From: an uncultured Carboxylicivirga sp.
Lineage (GTDB): Bacteria > Bacteroidota > Bacteroidia > Bacteroidales > Marinilabiliaceae
Length of the DNA stretch: 64,000 nt
Direction of reading: 5' to 3'
Assembly (NCBI GenBank): GCA_947503525.1
Contig: CANNEA010000001.1
Span: 496,001 to 560,000 of the forward strand
Part shown: in pieces, positions 36,971 through 44,149 of the stretch
Numbering within the stretch: the first letter of the stretch is position 1
How the letters are laid out: every line of letters starts with the position of its first letter
Notes under the pieces: model-generated
What the model was told of the DNA's origin: nothing
Databases searched by the model: none
The model's input: the letters and a program-made list of their open reading frames with translations, nothing else
Translations under genes and position numbers: made by a program

Positions 36971-37270
36971 ATGTACTTTATTGAAAAAACAATAGAATTT
37001 GACAAGTGGCTGAAGAAATTAAAAGACTTAAGAGCTAAGGCCAAAATATTATTTCGGATTCACAAAATTGAAAATGACGGACACTTTGGAGATTGCGAAA
37101 CAGTTGGTGATGGTATTAGAGAATTAAAAATAAATTACGCCAAAGGTTACAGAGTTTACTTCAAAGAAAAGGATAGAAGGATTATTGTTTTGTTAGTTGG
37201 AGGAAATAAATCAAGCCAACAAAAGGACATTGATAAAGCAAAAGAAATTTGGAGAAGAATTAAAAGCTGA
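36971..37270 (+). CDS. RelE/ParE-superfamily toxin (HigB-like addiction module killer)
   Basis: A 99-residue basic protein with the short RelE-fold pattern: IEFDKWLKKLKDLRAKAKILFRIHKIENDGHFGD, then IRELKINYAKGYRVYFKEKDRRIIVLLVGGNKSSQQKDIDKAKEI. This layout matches the COG3657 killer proteins, probably ribosome-dependent mRNA interferases. The toxin precedes the antitoxin, as in higBA. A palindrome over the likely promoter suggests autoregulation. The module is flanked by terminator hairpins and a short repeat element, consistent with an inserted accessory cassette. Confidence 0.85.
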   Translation: MYFIEKTIEFDKWLKKLKDLRAKAKILFRIHKIENDGHFGDCETVGDGIRELKINYAKGYRVYFKEKDRRIIVLLVGGNKSSQQKDIDKAKEIWRRIKS

Positions 37271-37274
37271 GATG

Positions 37275-37559
37275 ATGGAAACTTCGAAATTTGACATAGC
37301 AGATTATTTAGACGATAAGGAGATGATTGCAGAATACCTCAATACAGTATTGGAGGAAGGAAATGAATCTGATATAATTATAGCTATTGGATATGTTGCA
37401 AAATCAATAGGGATGACAAAAATAGCTAACGAAGCGGGTCTAAGTAGACCCAGCTTATACAAAGCCTTATCAGAAGGAGCAAAACCCCAATTTGAAACTA
37501 TACTAAAAGTATTAAAAGCAATTGGAGGTCAGCTAAGAATAAACCCTACTACAACTTAA
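37275..37559 (+). CDS. HTH antitoxin of the toxin-antitoxin module
   Basis: Start placed at the second ATG of an ATGATG pair just after the toxin stop (METSKFDIADYLDDKEMIAEYLN), which matches the normal start of COG3636 antidote proteins. Starting at 37272 would add one Met. The 94-residue product ends in a Cro/XRE-like helix-turn-helix, GMTKIANEAGLSRPSLYKALSEGAKPQFETILKVLKAIGGQL. It should bind the toxin and the upstream palindrome. Toxin and antitoxin are separated by 4 bases. Confidence 0.85.
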   Translation: METSKFDIADYLDDKEMIAEYLNTVLEEGNESDIIIAIGYVAKSIGMTKIANEAGLSRPSLYKALSEGAKPQFETILKVLKAIGGQLRINPTTT

Positions 37560-37771: not shown

Positions 37772-38548
37772 TTACTCCTCAATATTAGCCCGTACCATTT
37801 TTAAAAACTCCTGCATCCCTTCTGAATCTTTATTATCGATAAGCCCCAACAAGTGTTTCAGCTGAAAACGAATATTCTCAACCTGCTGGTAGGTAAAGGG
37901 ATTAAAAAGTATTTCTGTTAATAAATGATCCTCTTCAGATAACAGACCTTTTGCAATATTCATGTGCTTGTTGAATGTTGTACCAGGTGCTTTCTGATGT
38001 TTCATACAAGCTGCAAATACCAGGCTCGACGAGAAAGGTATGGATAAGGAGTAGGCAATAGTTTCGTCATGATCATCAAACGAATACTCATGAATATTAA
38101 GTCCTAATGATGCATAAAAGTCCTTGAAAAATGCTTTACCTAAATGATCACTTTGGGTGATAATTATGGCATGATGCATACTCAGGTCCTTAAGGTTGGC
38201 AAAAGTAGGTCCAAACATTGGATGTGTTGATACATATCGGTATCCACTTGTTTCATAGAAATCCTGAAAACCGGTTTTAACAGAGGCAATATCTGAAAGG
38301 ATACAATCCTGAGGTAAATAAGGGAGTACTTCTTTAAAGGCTTCCAAAGTGTGTTTTAAACTTACCGCATTGATTAATATTTCAGGGGCAAATTCAGTGA
38401 TTTCTTCCAGTTTGGTTAATCGCTGGGTGTTGAATACGTATCGCAGTCTGGAAATATCATGGTCAAAAATTGCTACCTCATGTTCCAAACATAAGGCATC
38501 GGTTAGCCATGTTCCCATTTTTCCGGCACCCAGTATACAGATCTTCAT
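37772..38548 (-). CDS. tyrA: prephenate dehydrogenase TyrA
   Basis: Makes 4-hydroxyphenylpyruvate for tyrosine. A Rossmann NAD motif, ILGAGKMGTWL, is at residues 4-14. LINAVSLKHTLEAFKEVLPYLP, DIASVKTGFQDFYE and STHPMFGPTFANL carry the catalytic His region of TyrA. The helical C-terminal dimer domain is shorter than usual (258 aa in all) and there is no ACT domain, so feedback regulation may be at the RNA level or absent. It is the last gene of the aromatic operon, behind a terminator hairpin and a short Tyr/Phe-containing ORF whose stop is 2 bases before this start. Confidence 0.88.
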   Translation of the reverse strand: MKICILGAGKMGTWLTDALCLEHEVAIFDHDISRLRYVFNTQRLTKLEEITEFAPEILINAVSLKHTLEAFKEVLPYLPQDCILSDIASVKTGFQDFYETSGYRYVSTHPMFGPTFANLKDLSMHHAIIITQSDHLGKAFFKDFYASLGLNIHEYSFDDHDETIAYSLSIPFSSSLVFAACMKHQKAPGTTFNKHMNIAKGLLSEEDHLLTEILFNPFTYQQVENIRFQLKHLLGLIDNKDSEGMQEFLKMVRANIEE

Positions 38549-38550
38549 AA

Positions 38551-38622
38551 TTATTGTTGTGTGGAGATATTTGTATCAATAGAAGAAAAGTATAAAGATG
38601 CAAAATACATCTTTATACTCAT
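38551..38622 (-). CDS. possible tyrA leader ORF, 23 codons
   Basis: ATG at 38622-38620 is preceded by CACAGG. The ORF reads MSIKMYFASLYFSS and then nine further residues to TAA at 38553-38551, 2 bases before the tyrA ATG. It holds two Tyr-Phe pairs (residues 6-7 and 11-12), and codons 2-12 lie exactly in the terminator hairpin between aroG-type gene and tyrA. Ribosomes on this ORF would open the hairpin, and its stop is placed to couple to tyrA. Two YF pairs in 23 codons are suggestive but could be chance. Confidence 0.4.
   Translation of the reverse strand: MSIKMYFASLYFSSIDTNISTQQ
38586..38619 (-). terminator. intrinsic terminator between DAHP synthase and tyrA
   Basis: Perfect 12-bp stem AGTATAAAGATG (38589-38600) with CATCTTTATACT (38608-38619), loop of 7. 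On the minus strand it is followed by TTTTCTTCT. It lies inside the operon, so it should reduce tyrA expression unless it is disrupted, for example by translation of the short ORF that spans it. Confidence 0.7.
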
Positions 38623-38630
38623 CCTGTGTT

Positions 38631-39728
38631 TTATTTTTTAGCCAGTTCTTTGTTCATGACAATGTTCTGTCTGTTTACAGATTCTTCATGAATATTTTCG
38701 AACACCTTAACGATAAACTCAGGATTAAGCTTTGCATCCTTAGCCTGCTCTTTTCGCTTATTCATTATTTCATCGTAACGACGCGTTTGAAGGATGGTAA
38801 TGTTGTTGTCGAACTTGTATTTACCTATCGCCTCTGATGTCTTCATTCTGGCACTTAATGTTTCCAAAAGCTGTTCATCCAACAGATCAATCTTTTTACG
38901 AAGTTCATCAATTGTTACACGTGGCTTTTCACCAATGGCAGATTGACGAACAACAAGATCGCTTATTATAGTAGAAAGATGATCTGGCGTTACCTGCTGG
39001 CTGGCATCACTCCATGCTTTCTCAGGACACATGTGTGATTCGATAATTAAACCGTCGAAGTTAAGGTCCATTGCTTCCTGTGACACATCAGCTATCATTT
39101 CGCTTTTACCTGAAATATGGCTAGGGTCAGTTATGATTGGTAAATTAGGAATGCGACGACGTAACTCAATAGGAATTTGCCATTCCGGGTTGTTACGGTA
39201 AACACTTTTATCGTAGGTGCTAAATCCTCGGTGAATTGCACCAATACGCTTTATACCGGCTTGATTAACACGTTCCATTGCGCCAATCCATAAATCTAAA
39301 TCCGGATTAACAGGGTTTTTAACCAGAACAGGGATATCTACTCCTGCCAGGGCGTCAGCTACTTCCTGAACCGCAAAAGGATTAGCTGTTGTTCTGGCAC
39401 CAATCCATAACATGTCAACCCCAAATTTTAGGGCTTCGTATACATGATGAGCTGTGGCCACCTCAACACTTACAAACATGCCTGTTTCTTCTTTTACCTT
39501 TTTAAGCCAAGGCAGGCCAACTGTTCCAACACCTTCGAAAGCTCCCGGACGAGTTCTTGGTTTCCAAATACCTGCTCTAAAAATTTTTACACCTTGCGCT
39601 GATAGCAAACGTGCTGTTTCTAAAGTTTGTTCTTCAGTTTCTGCACTACAAGGACCAGCAATTAATATTGGTCTTTCAAGCTTTAAACCTGGTAGCTCTA
39701 GTGGTAATAAATCTAGTTTATGATCCAT
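38631..39728 (-). CDS. bifunctional DAHP synthase/chorismate mutase
   Basis: First step of the shikimate pathway joined to the branch step to prephenate. The N-terminal DAHP synthase of the type I beta/KDO8P-like class (about 1-260) has PILIAGPCSAETEEQ, IFRAGIWKPRTRPGAFEGVG, LWIGARTTANPFAVQE and PIITDPSHISGKSE. The C-terminal AroQ chorismate mutase (about 270-350) has IDELRKKIDLLDEQLLETLSARM. The length of 365 is typical of the Bacteroidota fusion, in which the mutase domain follows the synthase. It is 2 bases from the upstream aminotransferase gene. Transcription of the operon is probably set by the upstream Phe/Tyr leader. Confidence 0.93.
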   Translation of the reverse strand: MDHKLDLLPLELPGLKLERPILIAGPCSAETEEQTLETARLLSAQGVKIFRAGIWKPRTRPGAFEGVGTVGLPWLKKVKEETGMFVSVEVATAHHVYEALKFGVDMLWIGARTTANPFAVQEVADALAGVDIPVLVKNPVNPDLDLWIGAMERVNQAGIKRIGAIHRGFSTYDKSVYRNNPEWQIPIELRRRIPNLPIITDPSHISGKSEMIADVSQEAMDLNFDGLIIESHMCPEKAWSDASQQVTPDHLSTIISDLVVRQSAIGEKPRVTIDELRKKIDLLDEQLLETLSARMKTSEAIGKYKFDNNITILQTRRYDEIMNKRKEQAKDAKLNPEFIVKVFENIHEESVNRQNIVMNKELAKK

Positions 39729-39730
39729 GG

Positions 39731-40903
39731 TTATTGTTTTAATATATTTTCTATTCTTTGTTTTGCTTCAATTAATACCTCTTGTTTAGTACAAAGGCTT
39801 ATGCGGATGTATTGTTTGCCCTTATCTCCAAAAATGAAACCGGGAGTGATAAACACATCAGATCCGTAAAGTATTTTATCTGATAATTCGCCACTATCGG
39901 AATACTTAGATGGAATTTTGGCCCATACAAACATGCCTGATTGCTTGTTGTCATAATCGCATTCCAACAAATCCATAATGTCTTCAACTAATAGGCGACG
40001 GGCTTTATATTCTTTATTTATGGTGGCATACCACTTTTCATCCAATTCAAGAGCTTTAACAGCTGCTAGCTGCAAGGGTTTAAACATGCCTGAATCCATG
40101 TTGCTTTTTACATGAAGTATATATTGTATAAATGTGGGATTTGACATAGCCATTCCAACTCTCCAACCCGCCATATTGTGCGACTTACTTAGTGAGTTAA
40201 GTTCTATTGCAATATCTTTAGCCCCTTCAACAGACATGATACTTTGCGGATCCTCGTTTAAAATAAAACTATAGGGATTGTCATTACATATCACAATGTT
40301 GTGTTTCTTTCCAAATGCAATGATGTCTTTAAAAAACTGAACATTCGCTTTGGCCCCGGTTGGCATATTAGGGTAATTGATCCACATTAGTTTAACTTTT
40401 GAAAGATCAAGTTTTTCCAACTCTGTCAGGTTTGGAAACCAGCCATTGTTTTCATCTAAATCATAATGAATAAGATTTGCTTGAGCAATTTTACTGGCTG
40501 AAGCATAAGTGGGGTAACCCGGATTGGGAACCAGTACGCTATCACCAGGATTAAGAAAAGCCATGGTAATATGCATTATACCTTCTTTAGAACCCATGAG
40601 CGGCAATACTTCCTTTGAAGGATCTACCTTTACATTGTAGTATTTATCATACCATGAGCTAAAGGCTGATCTTAATTCAGGAATACCAACATAGCTTTGG
40701 TAACCATGATTGGTTTTTTCATTACTTTGCTTATTAAGCTCTTCAAGTACGGAAGGAGCAGGAGCTAAATCAGGATTTCCAATCCCAAGATTGATAATAG
40801 ATTTTCCTTCTTGACGTAACTTTTCAAGCTCCTTAAGCTTAATTGAAAAGTAATACTCCTCAACCTGATTGATTCTATTTGCGGGGGCTATATTAAGACT
40901 CAT
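39731..40903 (-). CDS. class I/II aminotransferase, probably aromatic amino acid
   Basis: A PLP enzyme of 390 residues. SIINLGIGNPDLAPAPSVLEEL starts the fold. LVPNPGYPTYASASKIA, WINYPNMPTGAKANVQFF, and the Schiff-base Lys in ELNSLSKSHNMAGWRVGMAMSNP are all present, as is the C-terminal YIRISLC Arg that binds the carboxylate. It resembles LL-diaminopimelate/alanine-type aminotransferases. Its place between pheA and the DAHP synthase/mutase, with 2-base gaps, points to transamination of phenylpyruvate and hydroxyphenylpyruvate. This is inference from context. Confidence 0.85.
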   Translation of the reverse strand: MSLNIAPANRINQVEEYYFSIKLKELEKLRQEGKSIINLGIGNPDLAPAPSVLEELNKQSNEKTNHGYQSYVGIPELRSAFSSWYDKYYNVKVDPSKEVLPLMGSKEGIMHITMAFLNPGDSVLVPNPGYPTYASASKIAQANLIHYDLDENNGWFPNLTELEKLDLSKVKLMWINYPNMPTGAKANVQFFKDIIAFGKKHNIVICNDNPYSFILNEDPQSIMSVEGAKDIAIELNSLSKSHNMAGWRVGMAMSNPTFIQYILHVKSNMDSGMFKPLQLAAVKALELDEKWYATINKEYKARRLLVEDIMDLLECDYDNKQSGMFVWAKIPSKYSDSGELSDKILYGSDVFITPGFIFGDKGKQYIRISLCTKQEVLIEAKQRIENILKQ

Positions 40904-40905
40904 AA

Positions 40906-41796
40906 TTATATGGCTTGTTCAATTTTTGGACTTTGTGATGGATATGATTGCTTTCCTTTTTCGTATTCGCCAAGTATTTTTAGTTTTTGACATAGCGGAC
41001 GAATGGCATCTAATGATTGCAGATATCGCTTGTAATTATTAAAAGTCACGTCAACATAAAATAAGTATTCCCATTCATGCCCAACTATTGGTAGTGATTG
41101 TATTTTAGTCAGGTTTATACTGTAGAAATTAAGTATGGTTAATATTTTGGAAAGACTACCTTCTTCGTGAGGAAGTGAGAAAACCATTGATGACTTATTT
41201 ACTTTGTCTTGTTCCAATAACTCATCCGTTTCTGTTAAGGCTTTATCCGTAATTACGAGAAAACGAGTGAAGTTTTTCTTATTGGTTTCAATGCCGGCTG
41301 AAAGTATTTCTAGTTGATACATCTCTGCAGCTAATTCCGAAGCAATAGCGGCGATGCCTTCAATTTTTTCTTCTGCAATTCGCTTGGCACTTAAGGCTGT
41401 ATCTTCCGAAGCAATCAACTTAATATGAGGATGATGTTTGAAAAACTCTTCACATTGTGCCAATGCCATTGGATGAGAATGTACTTCCGTAATGTCTTCC
41501 AGCTTTTGACCTGGCAAGGCCATTAGTTGATGTTTGATGCGAAGTTTGTACTCTCCAATAATCATTAAGTCGCTATCCTTAAGCATGGTGTAGTTGGGAA
41601 GTAAGCTTCCTACCAAAGTGTTTTCAATGGCAATGATACCATAAATCGAACGATCGTTTTTTAGGGCTTGAAATAGATCCGGAAAGGTCAGGCATGGTAT
41701 TATCTCAAGATTATCGTTCTCGAAATAAGCCTTGGCAGCAATTTCGTGGTTTGCTCCCGGCCATCCTTGTATGGCTATTTTTTTCGTTTGTTTCAT
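40906..41796 (-). CDS. pheA: prephenate dehydratase PheA
   Basis: Makes phenylpyruvate from prephenate. The catalytic domain (about 1-190) starts KKIAIQGWPGANHEIAAKAYF and contains GIIAIENTLVGSL and the Thr-Arg-Phe catalytic triplet in KKNFTRFLVITDK. The C-terminal ACT domain (about 203-280) has SLPHEEGSLSKILTILNFYSINLTKIQSLP. The usual ESRP phenylalanine-binding motif is QSLP here, as I recall from other Bacteroidota too, so allosteric control may differ. It is the first structural gene of the aromatic operon, 20 bases after a terminator and 70 bases after the stop of a Phe/Tyr-rich leader ORF. Confidence 0.93.
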   Translation of the reverse strand: MKQTKKIAIQGWPGANHEIAAKAYFENDNLEIIPCLTFPDLFQALKNDRSIYGIIAIENTLVGSLLPNYTMLKDSDLMIIGEYKLRIKHQLMALPGQKLEDITEVHSHPMALAQCEEFFKHHPHIKLIASEDTALSAKRIAEEKIEGIAAIASELAAEMYQLEILSAGIETNKKNFTRFLVITDKALTETDELLEQDKVNKSSMVFSLPHEEGSLSKILTILNFYSINLTKIQSLPIVGHEWEYLFYVDVTFNNYKRYLQSLDAIRPLCQKLKILGEYEKGKQSYPSQSPKIEQAI

Positions 41797-41814: not shown

Positions 41815-41842
41815 TGAAAAAACCCGCCTTATGGGCGGGTTT
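41815..41842 (-). terminator. attenuator terminator of the Phe/Tyr operon
   Basis: On the minus strand AACCCGCC and GGCGGGTT form an 8-bp GC-rich stem with loop CATAA or similar, followed by TTTTTT (A run at 41817-41822 on plus). It ends about 20 bases before the pheA ATG and after the leader ORF, exactly where an attenuator belongs. Its 5-prime arm (minus-strand CCCGCCCAU) can instead pair with GGUGGGC inside leader codons 20-22. Confidence 0.88.
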
Positions 41843-41865
41843 TTACTATATTTTTAATGTTTTGA

Positions 41866-41943
41866 TTATCTCATAGCGTGCCCACCTCTTTTGCCTGATC
41901 CAAAAAAGAAATAATAAAAGTTATAAAAAAAGTTGTGAGCCAT
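41866..41943 (-). CDS. Phe/Tyr leader peptide of the aromatic operon
   Basis: A 25-codon ORF starting MAHN, then FYNFYYFFFG after a further F, so that residues 5-14 read FFYNFYYFFF read through as F-F-Y-N-F-Y-Y-F-F-F, then GSGKRGGHAMR and TAA. Nine of ten residues from 5 to 14 are Phe or Tyr. It lies between a consensus promoter and an intrinsic terminator ahead of pheA. Codons 20-21 (GGTGGG, plus 41881-41886) can pair with the 5-prime arm of the terminator, giving a candidate antiterminator. Ribosomes stalled for lack of charged tRNA-Phe or tRNA-Tyr would leave this segment free, whereas a ribosome at the stop codon would cover it. It is too short for ordinary gene calling. Confidence 0.88.
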   Translation of the reverse strand: MAHNFFYNFYYFFFGSGKRGGHAMR

Positions 41944-41963
41944 CTTTCTTTGATTTTATGCTA

Positions 41964-41994
41964 CAAATGTAGAGAAATATTTTCAATCACCAAA
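41964..41994 (-). promoter_or_regulatory. promoter of the Phe/Tyr operon
   Basis: On the minus strand TTTG (41994-41991), a 19-base spacer and TACATTTG (41971-41964) match the Bacteroidota consensus perfectly. The leader ATG at 41943 follows 20 bases after the -7 box. Confidence 0.85.
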
Positions 41995-42091: not shown

Positions 42092-44149
42092 TTAATAGCT
42101 AGTTTCTATAGAATCTCTTTTCGCGGAGTTATCTGTATTCACAAATGGATGATAGATTTTGAATATACTGCCCTTATCAACTTCTGATTGGACTTCTATT
42201 TTACCTCCAAGAAGAGTAGATAAGTCGTTTGCAATAGTTAAGCCTAAACCAGAACCTGCGGCTTTCTTTAATTGCGTATTTTCAACTTGAGAGAAACGTT
42301 TAAAGATATTCTCCATTTGATCTTCGGCTATGCCTATACCGGTATCTTTAACATAGATTATAATCATCTCGCCCTCTGGATATGCGCCTAGAGTAACGCT
42401 TCCAATATGAGTGAACTTAAGGGCATTAGTTAGAAGGTTAAATATAATTTGCCGTAGTCGAATCGAATCAGAATGTAGTTCTAACTGACTATCCAACTCT
42501 TTTATTTCTAATACAACCTCAAGATCAGGTTTGTTGAATTTACTTTTTTCACTATTAAACTGTTCGTATATTTCTTTAAGGAGTGTAGTTAAATTAAAAC
42601 TAGTGTATTGAAGTTCAATATGTCCAGCTTCCAATTGGGAGAAGATAAGTATGTCGGAAATCAACTTAAGCAGTTGTTGGCCGTTGGATTGAATTATGCC
42701 TAAATAGCTTCCTTTTTGTTCTTCGTTAAGCGTTGTATCTTCTAATAACTCGGAGAATCCAATAATCGCATTCATTGGAGTTCGAATTTCGTGCGACATG
42801 TTGGCTAAAAAAGCGGACTTAAGAAAGTCGGATTCCTCAGCTTTCTCCTTAGCAGCGATAAGCGCTTCTTCATTTAGCTTCTTCTCCGTTATATCTGTGA
42901 TGATTTTTACAAAACCAATTGGATTTTTGCCGCCATCGTATACCGGACTGGTTTTTGCGATAAAGTACTTATTACTTATTTTATTATGATGCTCGTAAAT
43001 TTCTGTTTTATTTGATTTTACACTGTTGTCACACTGACAGAATTCACATGGTTCGTCTATGTCAAAAGCAATTTTATGACATTTCTTTCCAATTATTTCT
43101 TCATAACTCAGAGGTGATCTTTTTTTGTAAGCCTCATTTGCCCACAACATCCTGTATTTGGTATCAATAAAAACAACTTGATCCTCAATACTATTAAGAA
43201 TCAAAGATTTTTCGTTTTCAAGTTGCTTGATCAGCTTTTCATTTGTGGCTCTGTTTTTCAATTCCTCATCCAGATTCTTACTTTTTAGCAATACCTTACG
43301 TCGTAATGAAATAAGAAAATAAATAAGTAAAAAAGTACAGAGAGCAAGCGCAATAGCTGTATACCTAATCCAATTAGGAATAGACTTTTGCGGGGCATTT
43401 ATAAGCCAGGAGTCAATTATGGATTGAAATAATTCAGGCGTGTCATTTTTAAGAGAATTAAATTCACTATTAAATTCATCGAGTAAAGCAGCCGAAGATG
43501 TATTACATGCAAAATGTAATTGAACAGGATTGAACAGGATTGATGTTTCCTTAAGTTTATTGTCTGTATTATGAGTGTATCCAAAAAATTTATTAACAGC
43601 AGCAGCATCCACTTTACCTGATCTGAGTGACTCAATTAATTGATCTTGATTGTCAAACCAATGGATATCCACATCAACATTAAAATCGGAAAGTAACTGA
43701 CTGAAGGCTTTCCCATGAATATCACCTTTTTCTAATCCCACTTTCATTTCGTGAAGGTCGGGGATGTTTTTAATATCATCATGGGCATTTATATATACTG
43801 CGCCCCAATTGGTGAATACAACTTCATTTGAGAATAAGAACTGTTTATCTCTTTCACTGGAAAAGGCAATGGCAGGCAAAATCTCAATTTCCCTGTTTTT
43901 CAATGCCAGTAAGGCTTTTTCTAAATTGTAGAAAGTGTAATTTAATTGCCAATTTCGTTTTTCGGCAACATGTTCCATAATATCAATGAAAATGCCTGCT
44001 GCCTTTTCGGTAGAATCGGTATATATTAAAGGAGGATTTTGGTAAACGCCAACATTAACCTTTTTTAATGTTGCCTTGGTATTGGACATTGAAAATTGTG
44101 GTGCAACAAAACTGCACAACCATAGTATGGCTAAAAGTTTATTGGGCAT
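42092..44149 (-). CDS. sensor histidine kinase with periplasmic SBP-like domain and PAS domain
   Basis: A 685-residue membrane kinase. An N-terminal signal is followed by a family 3 solute-binding domain (about 30-250; VNVGVYQNPPLIYTDSTEKAAGIFIDIMEHVAE, VGLEKGD). One transmembrane helix (WIRYTAIALALCTFLLIYFLISL) comes next. A PAS domain at about 315-425 holds a cluster of cysteines (GKKCHKIAF and PCEFCQCDNS) that may bind metal or sense redox. The kinase core has the H-box ANMSHEIRTPMNAIIGF, N-box LTNALKFT, G1 DTGIGI and G2 GSGLGLTI. There is no receiver domain. Family 3 domains often bind amino acids, and the aromatic operon starts just downstream, but any link is speculative. Confidence 0.88.
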   Translation of the reverse strand: MPNKLLAILWLCSFVAPQFSMSNTKATLKKVNVGVYQNPPLIYTDSTEKAAGIFIDIMEHVAEKRNWQLNYTFYNLEKALLALKNREIEILPAIAFSSERDKQFLFSNEVVFTNWGAVYINAHDDIKNIPDLHEMKVGLEKGDIHGKAFSQLLSDFNVDVDIHWFDNQDQLIESLRSGKVDAAAVNKFFGYTHNTDNKLKETSILFNPVQLHFACNTSSAALLDEFNSEFNSLKNDTPELFQSIIDSWLINAPQKSIPNWIRYTAIALALCTFLLIYFLISLRRKVLLKSKNLDEELKNRATNEKLIKQLENEKSLILNSIEDQVVFIDTKYRMLWANEAYKKRSPLSYEEIIGKKCHKIAFDIDEPCEFCQCDNSVKSNKTEIYEHHNKISNKYFIAKTSPVYDGGKNPIGFVKIITDITEKKLNEEALIAAKEKAEESDFLKSAFLANMSHEIRTPMNAIIGFSELLEDTTLNEEQKGSYLGIIQSNGQQLLKLISDILIFSQLEAGHIELQYTSFNLTTLLKEIYEQFNSEKSKFNKPDLEVVLEIKELDSQLELHSDSIRLRQIIFNLLTNALKFTHIGSVTLGAYPEGEMIIIYVKDTGIGIAEDQMENIFKRFSQVENTQLKKAAGSGLGLTIANDLSTLLGGKIEVQSEVDKGSIFKIYHPFVNTDNSAKRDSIETSY

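Follow-up and report, generated by a model that had tools for sequence, protein, structure and literature searches.

A candidate Phe/Tyr leader-peptide attenuator upstream of the pheA operon is conserved among Bacteroidia

Attenuation has long been known as a principle of transcription control. The classical trpL and hisL attenuators contain an antiterminator helix (2:3) and a terminator helix (3:4), and their control codons are located in or before region 1. In the proteobacterial pheA/pheL system, a short Phe-rich leader ORF and an alternative terminator and antiterminator are positioned ahead of the prephenate dehydratase gene. Amino acid control in Bacteroidota, a phylum important in the gut and in the sea, is thinly documented in the searchable open-licence literature. 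For Bacteroides thetaiotaomicron, a putative attenuator of the operon pheA > hisHb > aroAIbeta-aroQ > tyrA was tabulated in 2005, taken from Merino's database (PMC1173090, Table 7), and leader-like small ORFs of this species have been mentioned (PMC7366714, in the part available). A study on Flavobacterium psychrophilum proposes, on strong clues, that leader peptides attenuate amino acid operons, and describes a 5' element with no Rfam match that is conserved ahead of pheA in Flavobacteriaceae; its available passages do not give the peptide, the helices or the spread beyond the family (PMC9723704). The Bacteroides entry has the same gene order and the same attenuator position as the locus described here, and is very likely the same element, although its table row says nothing of a leader peptide, the amino acid sensed, covariation or distribution (PMC1173090, as far as the accessible part goes). 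A reading made from the sequence alone had left it undecided whether such an element was already described. This table entry and the related Flavobacterium evidence anticipate the pheA element in part, but among the matches listed in searches of the open-licence literature there was no account of a leader rich in Phe and Tyr, of the helices it forms or of how widely it occurs in the class. The element is conserved across a large bacterial group.

Here, we analyzed the window, a 64,000-nucleotide stretch of DNA from an uncultured Carboxylicivirga sp. (Marinilabiliaceae). The leader ahead of its pheA gene shares the 2:3 antiterminator and the 3:4 terminator with trpL and hisL. It is unlike them in the amino acids presumably sensed, in the widely variable position of the stop codon relative to region 2, and in the protector function of the 1:2 stem, which is only a candidate here. 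Like proteobacterial pheL, it combines a short leader ORF with Phe codons and alternative terminator and antiterminator helices before a prephenate dehydratase gene. The Rfam Phe_leader model (RF01859) aligns with it over its full length (model positions 1-125 of 125, 39.3 bits) and is the best-scoring Rfam family in the window. Unlike pheL, it carries a mixed Phe/Tyr run, occurs in another phylum and precedes an operon that holds an aminotransferase, a DAHP synthase/mutase and tyrA. The Phe_leader gathering score (55 bits) was reached neither in the window nor in the 18 relatives scanned (best 45 bits), and 3 of these 18 matched at E<=0.01. Such scores measure similarity to the model alone, and the likeness to the proteobacterial leader may be convergent.

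The operon lies on the minus strand. It comprises pheA for prephenate dehydratase (PDT; 40906-41796; PF00800, E 4.5e-59), a class I/II aminotransferase gene (Aminotran_1_2; 39731-40903; PF00155), a DAHP synthase-chorismate mutase fusion (DAHP_synth_1+CM_2; 38631-39728; PF00793 and PF01817) and tyrA for prephenate dehydrogenase (PDH_N; 37772-38548; PF02153). These Pfam domains agree with the gene order proposed earlier from the sequence. Between the DAHP synthase/mutase gene and tyrA, an inverted repeat (38588-38620, minus strand) has 15 pairs, only three of them G-C, and a tail rich in T. Beyond tyrA, a plus-strand gene pair at 36971-37559 gives Pfam matches to Gp49 and to an HI1420-type addiction-module antidote, and is likely a toxin-antitoxin pair.

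All elements listed in the sequence-only reading, from the promoter boxes to pheA, were found at the positions it gave, again on the minus strand. The promoter-like boxes (41964-41994) consist of TTTG (41994-41991), a 19-nt spacer and TACATTTG (41971-41964), a promoter-like pair of the Bacteroidota type (-33/-7 consensus). The leader ORF, MAHNFFYNFYYFFFGSGKRGGHAMR, has 25 codons plus a stop and runs from the ATG at 41943 to the end of the stop codon at 41866; its codons 5-14 encode the putative sensing run FFYNFYYFFF (41902-41931). Region 2, the antiterminator segment, is GGUGGG (GGTGGG in DNA; 41881-41886) and coincides with codons 20-21. It lies within a block, AGAGGUGGGC (41889-41880), conserved in close relatives, and the block AAAAGAGGTGGGC lies ahead of the terminator hairpin. 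Region 3, the 5' arm of the terminator, is AAAAACCCGCC (41834-41844), of which CCCGCC (41839-41834) pairs with region 2. Region 4 comprises the 3' arm GGCGGGUUUUU and the U run (41817-41828). The whole hairpin reads AAAAACCCGCC-CATAA-GGCGGGTTTTT followed by the U run (41844-41818).

We assessed how readily such parts arise by chance. In the 300 nt upstream of pheA, a short ORF with 9 F/Y per 12 codons appeared in 1 of 2000 dinucleotide shuffles, and the same density was reached by 2 of the 850 overlapping 300-nt tiles covering both strands of the window. At least 6 F/Y of 12 codons appeared in 197 of the 2000 shuffles, indicating that low-scoring leaders are individually weak. In 56 stretches of 400 nt preceding the genus's other amino acid genes, which were identified by domain matches, the maximum was 6 F/Y of 12, versus 9 at the pheA leader. 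Neither an NCBIfam profile search with four leader peptides nor a Pfam search with the window leader peptide matched any model. The leader region folds better than its shuffles (z -3.08). A structured RNA ahead of an amino acid operon would also be expected if Phe, Tyr or uncharged tRNA were bound directly, by a riboswitch or T-box-like element, and the ORF were incidental. However, no Rfam family, T-box and riboswitches included, reached its gathering score in the window, the alignment shows little conservation outside the run and the alternative helices, and the in-frame codon run is conserved whereas the peptide beyond it varies. Direct binding was rejected on this evidence and is the least probable of the alternatives considered.

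The relatives searched included thirteen further genomes of the window's genus. The close set held 30 loci, the window's own and 29 relatives, one of which (L015) was set aside because a contig end truncates it. The other 29 (own plus 28) have DNA upstream of pheA, and every one of them has a leader with an F/Y run, a G-rich block and a terminator there. In the named set of 80 loci, 3 of them truncated and some from genomes common to the close set, the leader was present in 77/77 usable loci, 76 of which had at least 8 F/Y in 12 codons. Over the sets, L015, L065, L106 and L115 were left out for contig ends. A wider set of 61 loci covered more distant members of the order, a sample of the class and a few others. 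At least 6 F/Y of 12 codons were found in 39 of these 61 and at least 8 in 29, one locus without upstream DNA (L179) being counted as a miss. The leader is not universal in the class, some PheA genes of which lack it. Thirty PheA loci were chosen by best PF00800 score, 29 in genomes outside the class; none had more than 4 F/Y in 12 codons.

Loci with fewer than 6 F/Y of 12 codons were left out of an attenuator set of 138, which was thus selected for the run. A script found an intrinsic terminator between the leader and the first gene in 137 of the 138, the exception being L127. Removing L127 and repeated segments left 129 distinct attenuators. The promoter-like motif TAnnTTTG was found within 70 nt 5' of the leader start at 118/137 attenuator loci, compared with 142/2740 base shuffles. 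The last six codons of the run include both F and Y in 119 of the 129 attenuators and Phe without Tyr in 10, and the leaders together contain 774 F versus 518 Y. The ten Phe-only loci and the larger F total would be consistent with an attenuator of the same kind that in practice senses Phe alone and tolerates Tyr codons. The 119 loci with both residues, and an operon containing both pheA and tyrA, argue against Phe-only sensing, and we consider it unlikely.

Conservation of the neighbourhood bears on another explanation of the hairpin. Upstream of the leader lies a gene for a sensor histidine kinase with SBP_bac_3 solute-binding, PAS and HisKA/HATPase domains (42092-44149, minus strand). It is on the same strand as the leader, with about 150 nt between its end and the leader start, as would be expected if the hairpin were simply its constitutive terminator, with a chance U-rich tract and no regulation. 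However, a kinase-like match at any position occurs on only 5/80 named loci, whereas the leader is found in 77/77 usable ones; a promoter-like box lies in between, and region 2 covaries with the terminator. The constitutive terminator was rejected on these grounds and appears very improbable. Over three locus sets, counted where downstream DNA was present, the kinase-like neighbour occurs on 14/30, 5/80 and 0/29 loci and the aminotransferase on 30/30, 77/80 and 24/29.

To compare regions 2 and 3 among the 129 attenuators, which were selected for the F/Y run, we took the segment of up to 45 nt that follows the run and calculated its best duplex with the 5' arm plus loop of the terminator. Region 2 paired with its own terminator at a mean of -16.09 kcal/mol and with the terminators of other species at -11.24 kcal/mol. 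The own-pair energies summed to -2075.9, compared with -1455.5 (sd 31.1) after permutation, and none of 20000 permutations reached the observed sum. Own pairing was better than that of shuffled segments at p<=0.05 in 116/129, and the window is among the 13 with p>0.05; two Flavobacterium-like loci, L195 and L196, pair poorly (p 0.36 and 0.235). Block and arm change in step, with GAGGUGGG opposite CCCGCCUC, GAAGCGGGA opposite UCCCGCUUC, GGCAGGA opposite UCCUGCC and GCCGGGACU opposite AGUCCCGGC. In the window, the terminator arm is CCCGCCCAU, leaving 6 bp in the 2:3 helix. The six-pair antiterminator described earlier is a short form of a helix that has 8-10 bp in many relatives, such as those combining GAGGUGGG with CCCGCCUC. 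On its own, the window pairing (6 bp, -11.8 kcal/mol, p 0.075) is within chance, and conservation is what convinces.

Covariation was assessed in a MAFFT alignment of 35 loci hand-picked from the 129 for diversity, a non-random sample, with the 2:3 register taken from the alignment itself. In the 2:3 helix, 88.5% of cells were paired and 44 were changed on both sides; the covariation score was 0.428, compared with 0.245 when shuffled and at most 0.144 when slid. In the 3:4 helix, 100% of cells were paired and 43 were changed on both sides, with a score of 0.478 compared with 0.226 shuffled and at most 0.159 slid. Alignment column 110 covaries with both of its partners, as expected for a base common to two alternative helices. 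Two measures gave less support. For the number of further pair types, 499/500 (2:3) and 196/500 (3:4) shuffles reached the observed value; for 2:3 pairs changed on both sides, 17/500 shuffles did so and a slide of +3 gave the same 6. A conserved Phe/Tyr run with a co-varying terminator in relatives had been set beforehand as the test of the sequence-only reading, and both were found, the leader in 29/29 and 77/77 loci and covariation in both helices. Comparison among relatives supports a mutually exclusive antiterminator in evolutionary terms, weakly so in the window itself. The 3:4 helix also bears on whether the leader acts on pheA translation, by coupling or re-initiation, instead of on transcription. 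Leader ORFs near genes may raise translation through re-initiation (PMC4833913, in its accessible part), but here 69 nt separate the leader stop from the pheA start, a strong U-tailed hairpin lies in between, and the hairpin is paired in every cell of the 35 selected loci. Translational control was rejected on this evidence, being about as improbable as the constitutive terminator.

Region 2 appears to be maintained as RNA. At one alignment column, its reading frames were distributed as 13, 13 and 9 of the 35 loci, and a stop codon precedes this column in 11 of them. L001, L003 and L081 share the octamer GAGGUGGG but each reads it in a different frame, and in L008 it follows the stop codon. 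A cruder count at the end of each predicted duplex gave 48, 42 and 39 of the 129. Its occurrence in all three frames means that region 2 is conserved at the RNA level and not as peptide, and the idea of a conserved peptide was rejected. The proposal of a compact design, with region 2 inside the coding end of the leader, did not hold as a conserved feature: of the 129 stop codons, 30 precede region 2, 20 fall within it and 79 follow it, and the idea of a special layout was dropped because of this variability. Region 2 starts a median of 10 nt after the last F/Y codon in the 129, and a ribosome at the stop codon, with its footprint size assumed, overlaps region 2 in 119/129. This spacing would suit a stalled ribosome that frees region 2 and a terminating ribosome that covers it.

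Sequence comparison thus yields a leader ORF with its codon run, mutually exclusive covarying 2:3 and 3:4 helices, a frame-independent region 2 and ribosome-compatible spacing. Together these point to transcription attenuation mediated by the ribosome, with charged Phe-tRNA and Tyr-tRNA as the signals sensed, a reading to which we assign a probability of roughly 0.93. We infer from it stalling, premature termination and a response to Phe and Tyr of the OR type, in which shortage of either amino acid would suffice, with a possible role for a 1:2 stem. RNA polymerase would start just upstream of the leader ORF, followed by a ribosome. When both amino acids are plentiful, the ribosome would pass the Phe/Tyr codons to the stop and cover or pass region 2; region 2 would be kept from region 3, the 3:4 hairpin would form and transcription would end before pheA. 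When Phe or Tyr is short, the ribosome would stall in the run, leaving region 2 free about 10 nt downstream. The 2:3 helix would then form once region 3 is made, 3:4 would be blocked or delayed, and the operon would be transcribed. Pairing of the late Phe/Tyr codons with region 2 may form a further stem that acts as a protector or pauses the polymerase.

We folded the leaders in the corresponding states. When the ribosome occupies the last F/Y codon and transcription has not reached region 4, 2:3 is predicted to form in 128/129. In the full RNA, 2:3 beats 3:4 in 37/129 with a stalled ribosome versus 3/129 for free RNA, suggesting that stalling shifts the balance, and the terminator wins in 92/129 and 126/129, respectively. 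In the window, the terminator wins at equilibrium even with the stalled ribosome. Given that the terminator is still favoured in the window and in most loci, the switch has to work kinetically and may leak. The absence of 2:3 from the window fold with a ribosome at the stop follows from where the fold was cut and has no evidential value.

A possible 1:2 stem was found by prediction. In minimum-energy folds of the run plus region 2, at least 5 pairs join the F/Y codons to region 2 or to the six preceding bases in 120/129. In the window, UCUUUUUUG (41909-41901, minus strand, in codons 12-15) is region 1, the 5' arm of the predicted protector or pause stem, and in the fold of L001 forms 9 pairs with CAAAAGAGG (41893-41885). 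The 3' arm overlaps region 2 by two bases; these two belong to its paired part, and 1:2 and 2:3 fold together. Shuffling third bases among the F/Y codons weakened the fold (mean z -0.88 over the 128 loci with variance; Wilcoxon p 1e-17, which overstates the effect given that the rows are related), and only 8/129 loci were individually at p<=0.05. In free RNA before region 4, 1:2 and 2:3 formed together in 68 of the 129; 41 had only 1:2, 17 had only 2:3 and 3 had neither, so that 2:3 formed in 85/129. These competition folds do not support the stem as a full protector, and it is now given a candidate role only. A protector role is doubtful in these models; by analogy with other attenuators, the stem could instead pause the polymerase.

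A broader reading seems to us to have slightly better than an even chance. It holds that a two-input (Phe or Tyr) attenuator goes back to an ancestor of much of the class Bacteroidia and is missing from catalogues of RNA and peptide families, with region 2 free of frame and the late codons possibly serving as a protector or pause strand. The exact parts and covariation signal of the pheA leader could seed a curated RNA family. Mixed Phe/Tyr codons ahead of one operon for both branches would also offer a clean test of how a single attenuator combines the signals of two amino acids. The window's genus also has His, Trp and Ile/Leu/Val leaders, found before hisG, trpE and ilvD. If these readings are true, the Phe/Tyr attenuator is one of a wider set of leader peptides (Phe/Tyr, His, Trp, Ile/Leu/Val), and such attenuators may be a main control of amino acid synthesis in these bacteria. 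A rough scan upstream of one of two homoserine dehydrogenase copies found no Thr/Ile leader in 14/14 loci; the other copy has longer open frames.

Upstream of hisG (L202-L215), two leader ORFs with His runs occur in series in 13/14 genomes, and the window's own genome has one (L208). Script-found terminators follow 26/27 of the hisG leaders, and all 26 pair with their own at p<=0.035. Two leader-peptide attenuators in tandem for a single amino acid seem unusual; none appeared in titles or abstracts among the matches listed in a literature search. Upstream of trpE (L216-L229), a leader with a conserved Trp-Trp is followed by His-His or His-Tyr, reading WHWHH in the window's genome (L217), and pairing with the own terminator reached p<=0.05 in only 5/14. 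Upstream of ilvD (L236-L249), a leader with an Ile/Leu/Val run is present in 14/14 genomes, and a terminator-like hairpin is visible in the copy of the window's genome (L249).
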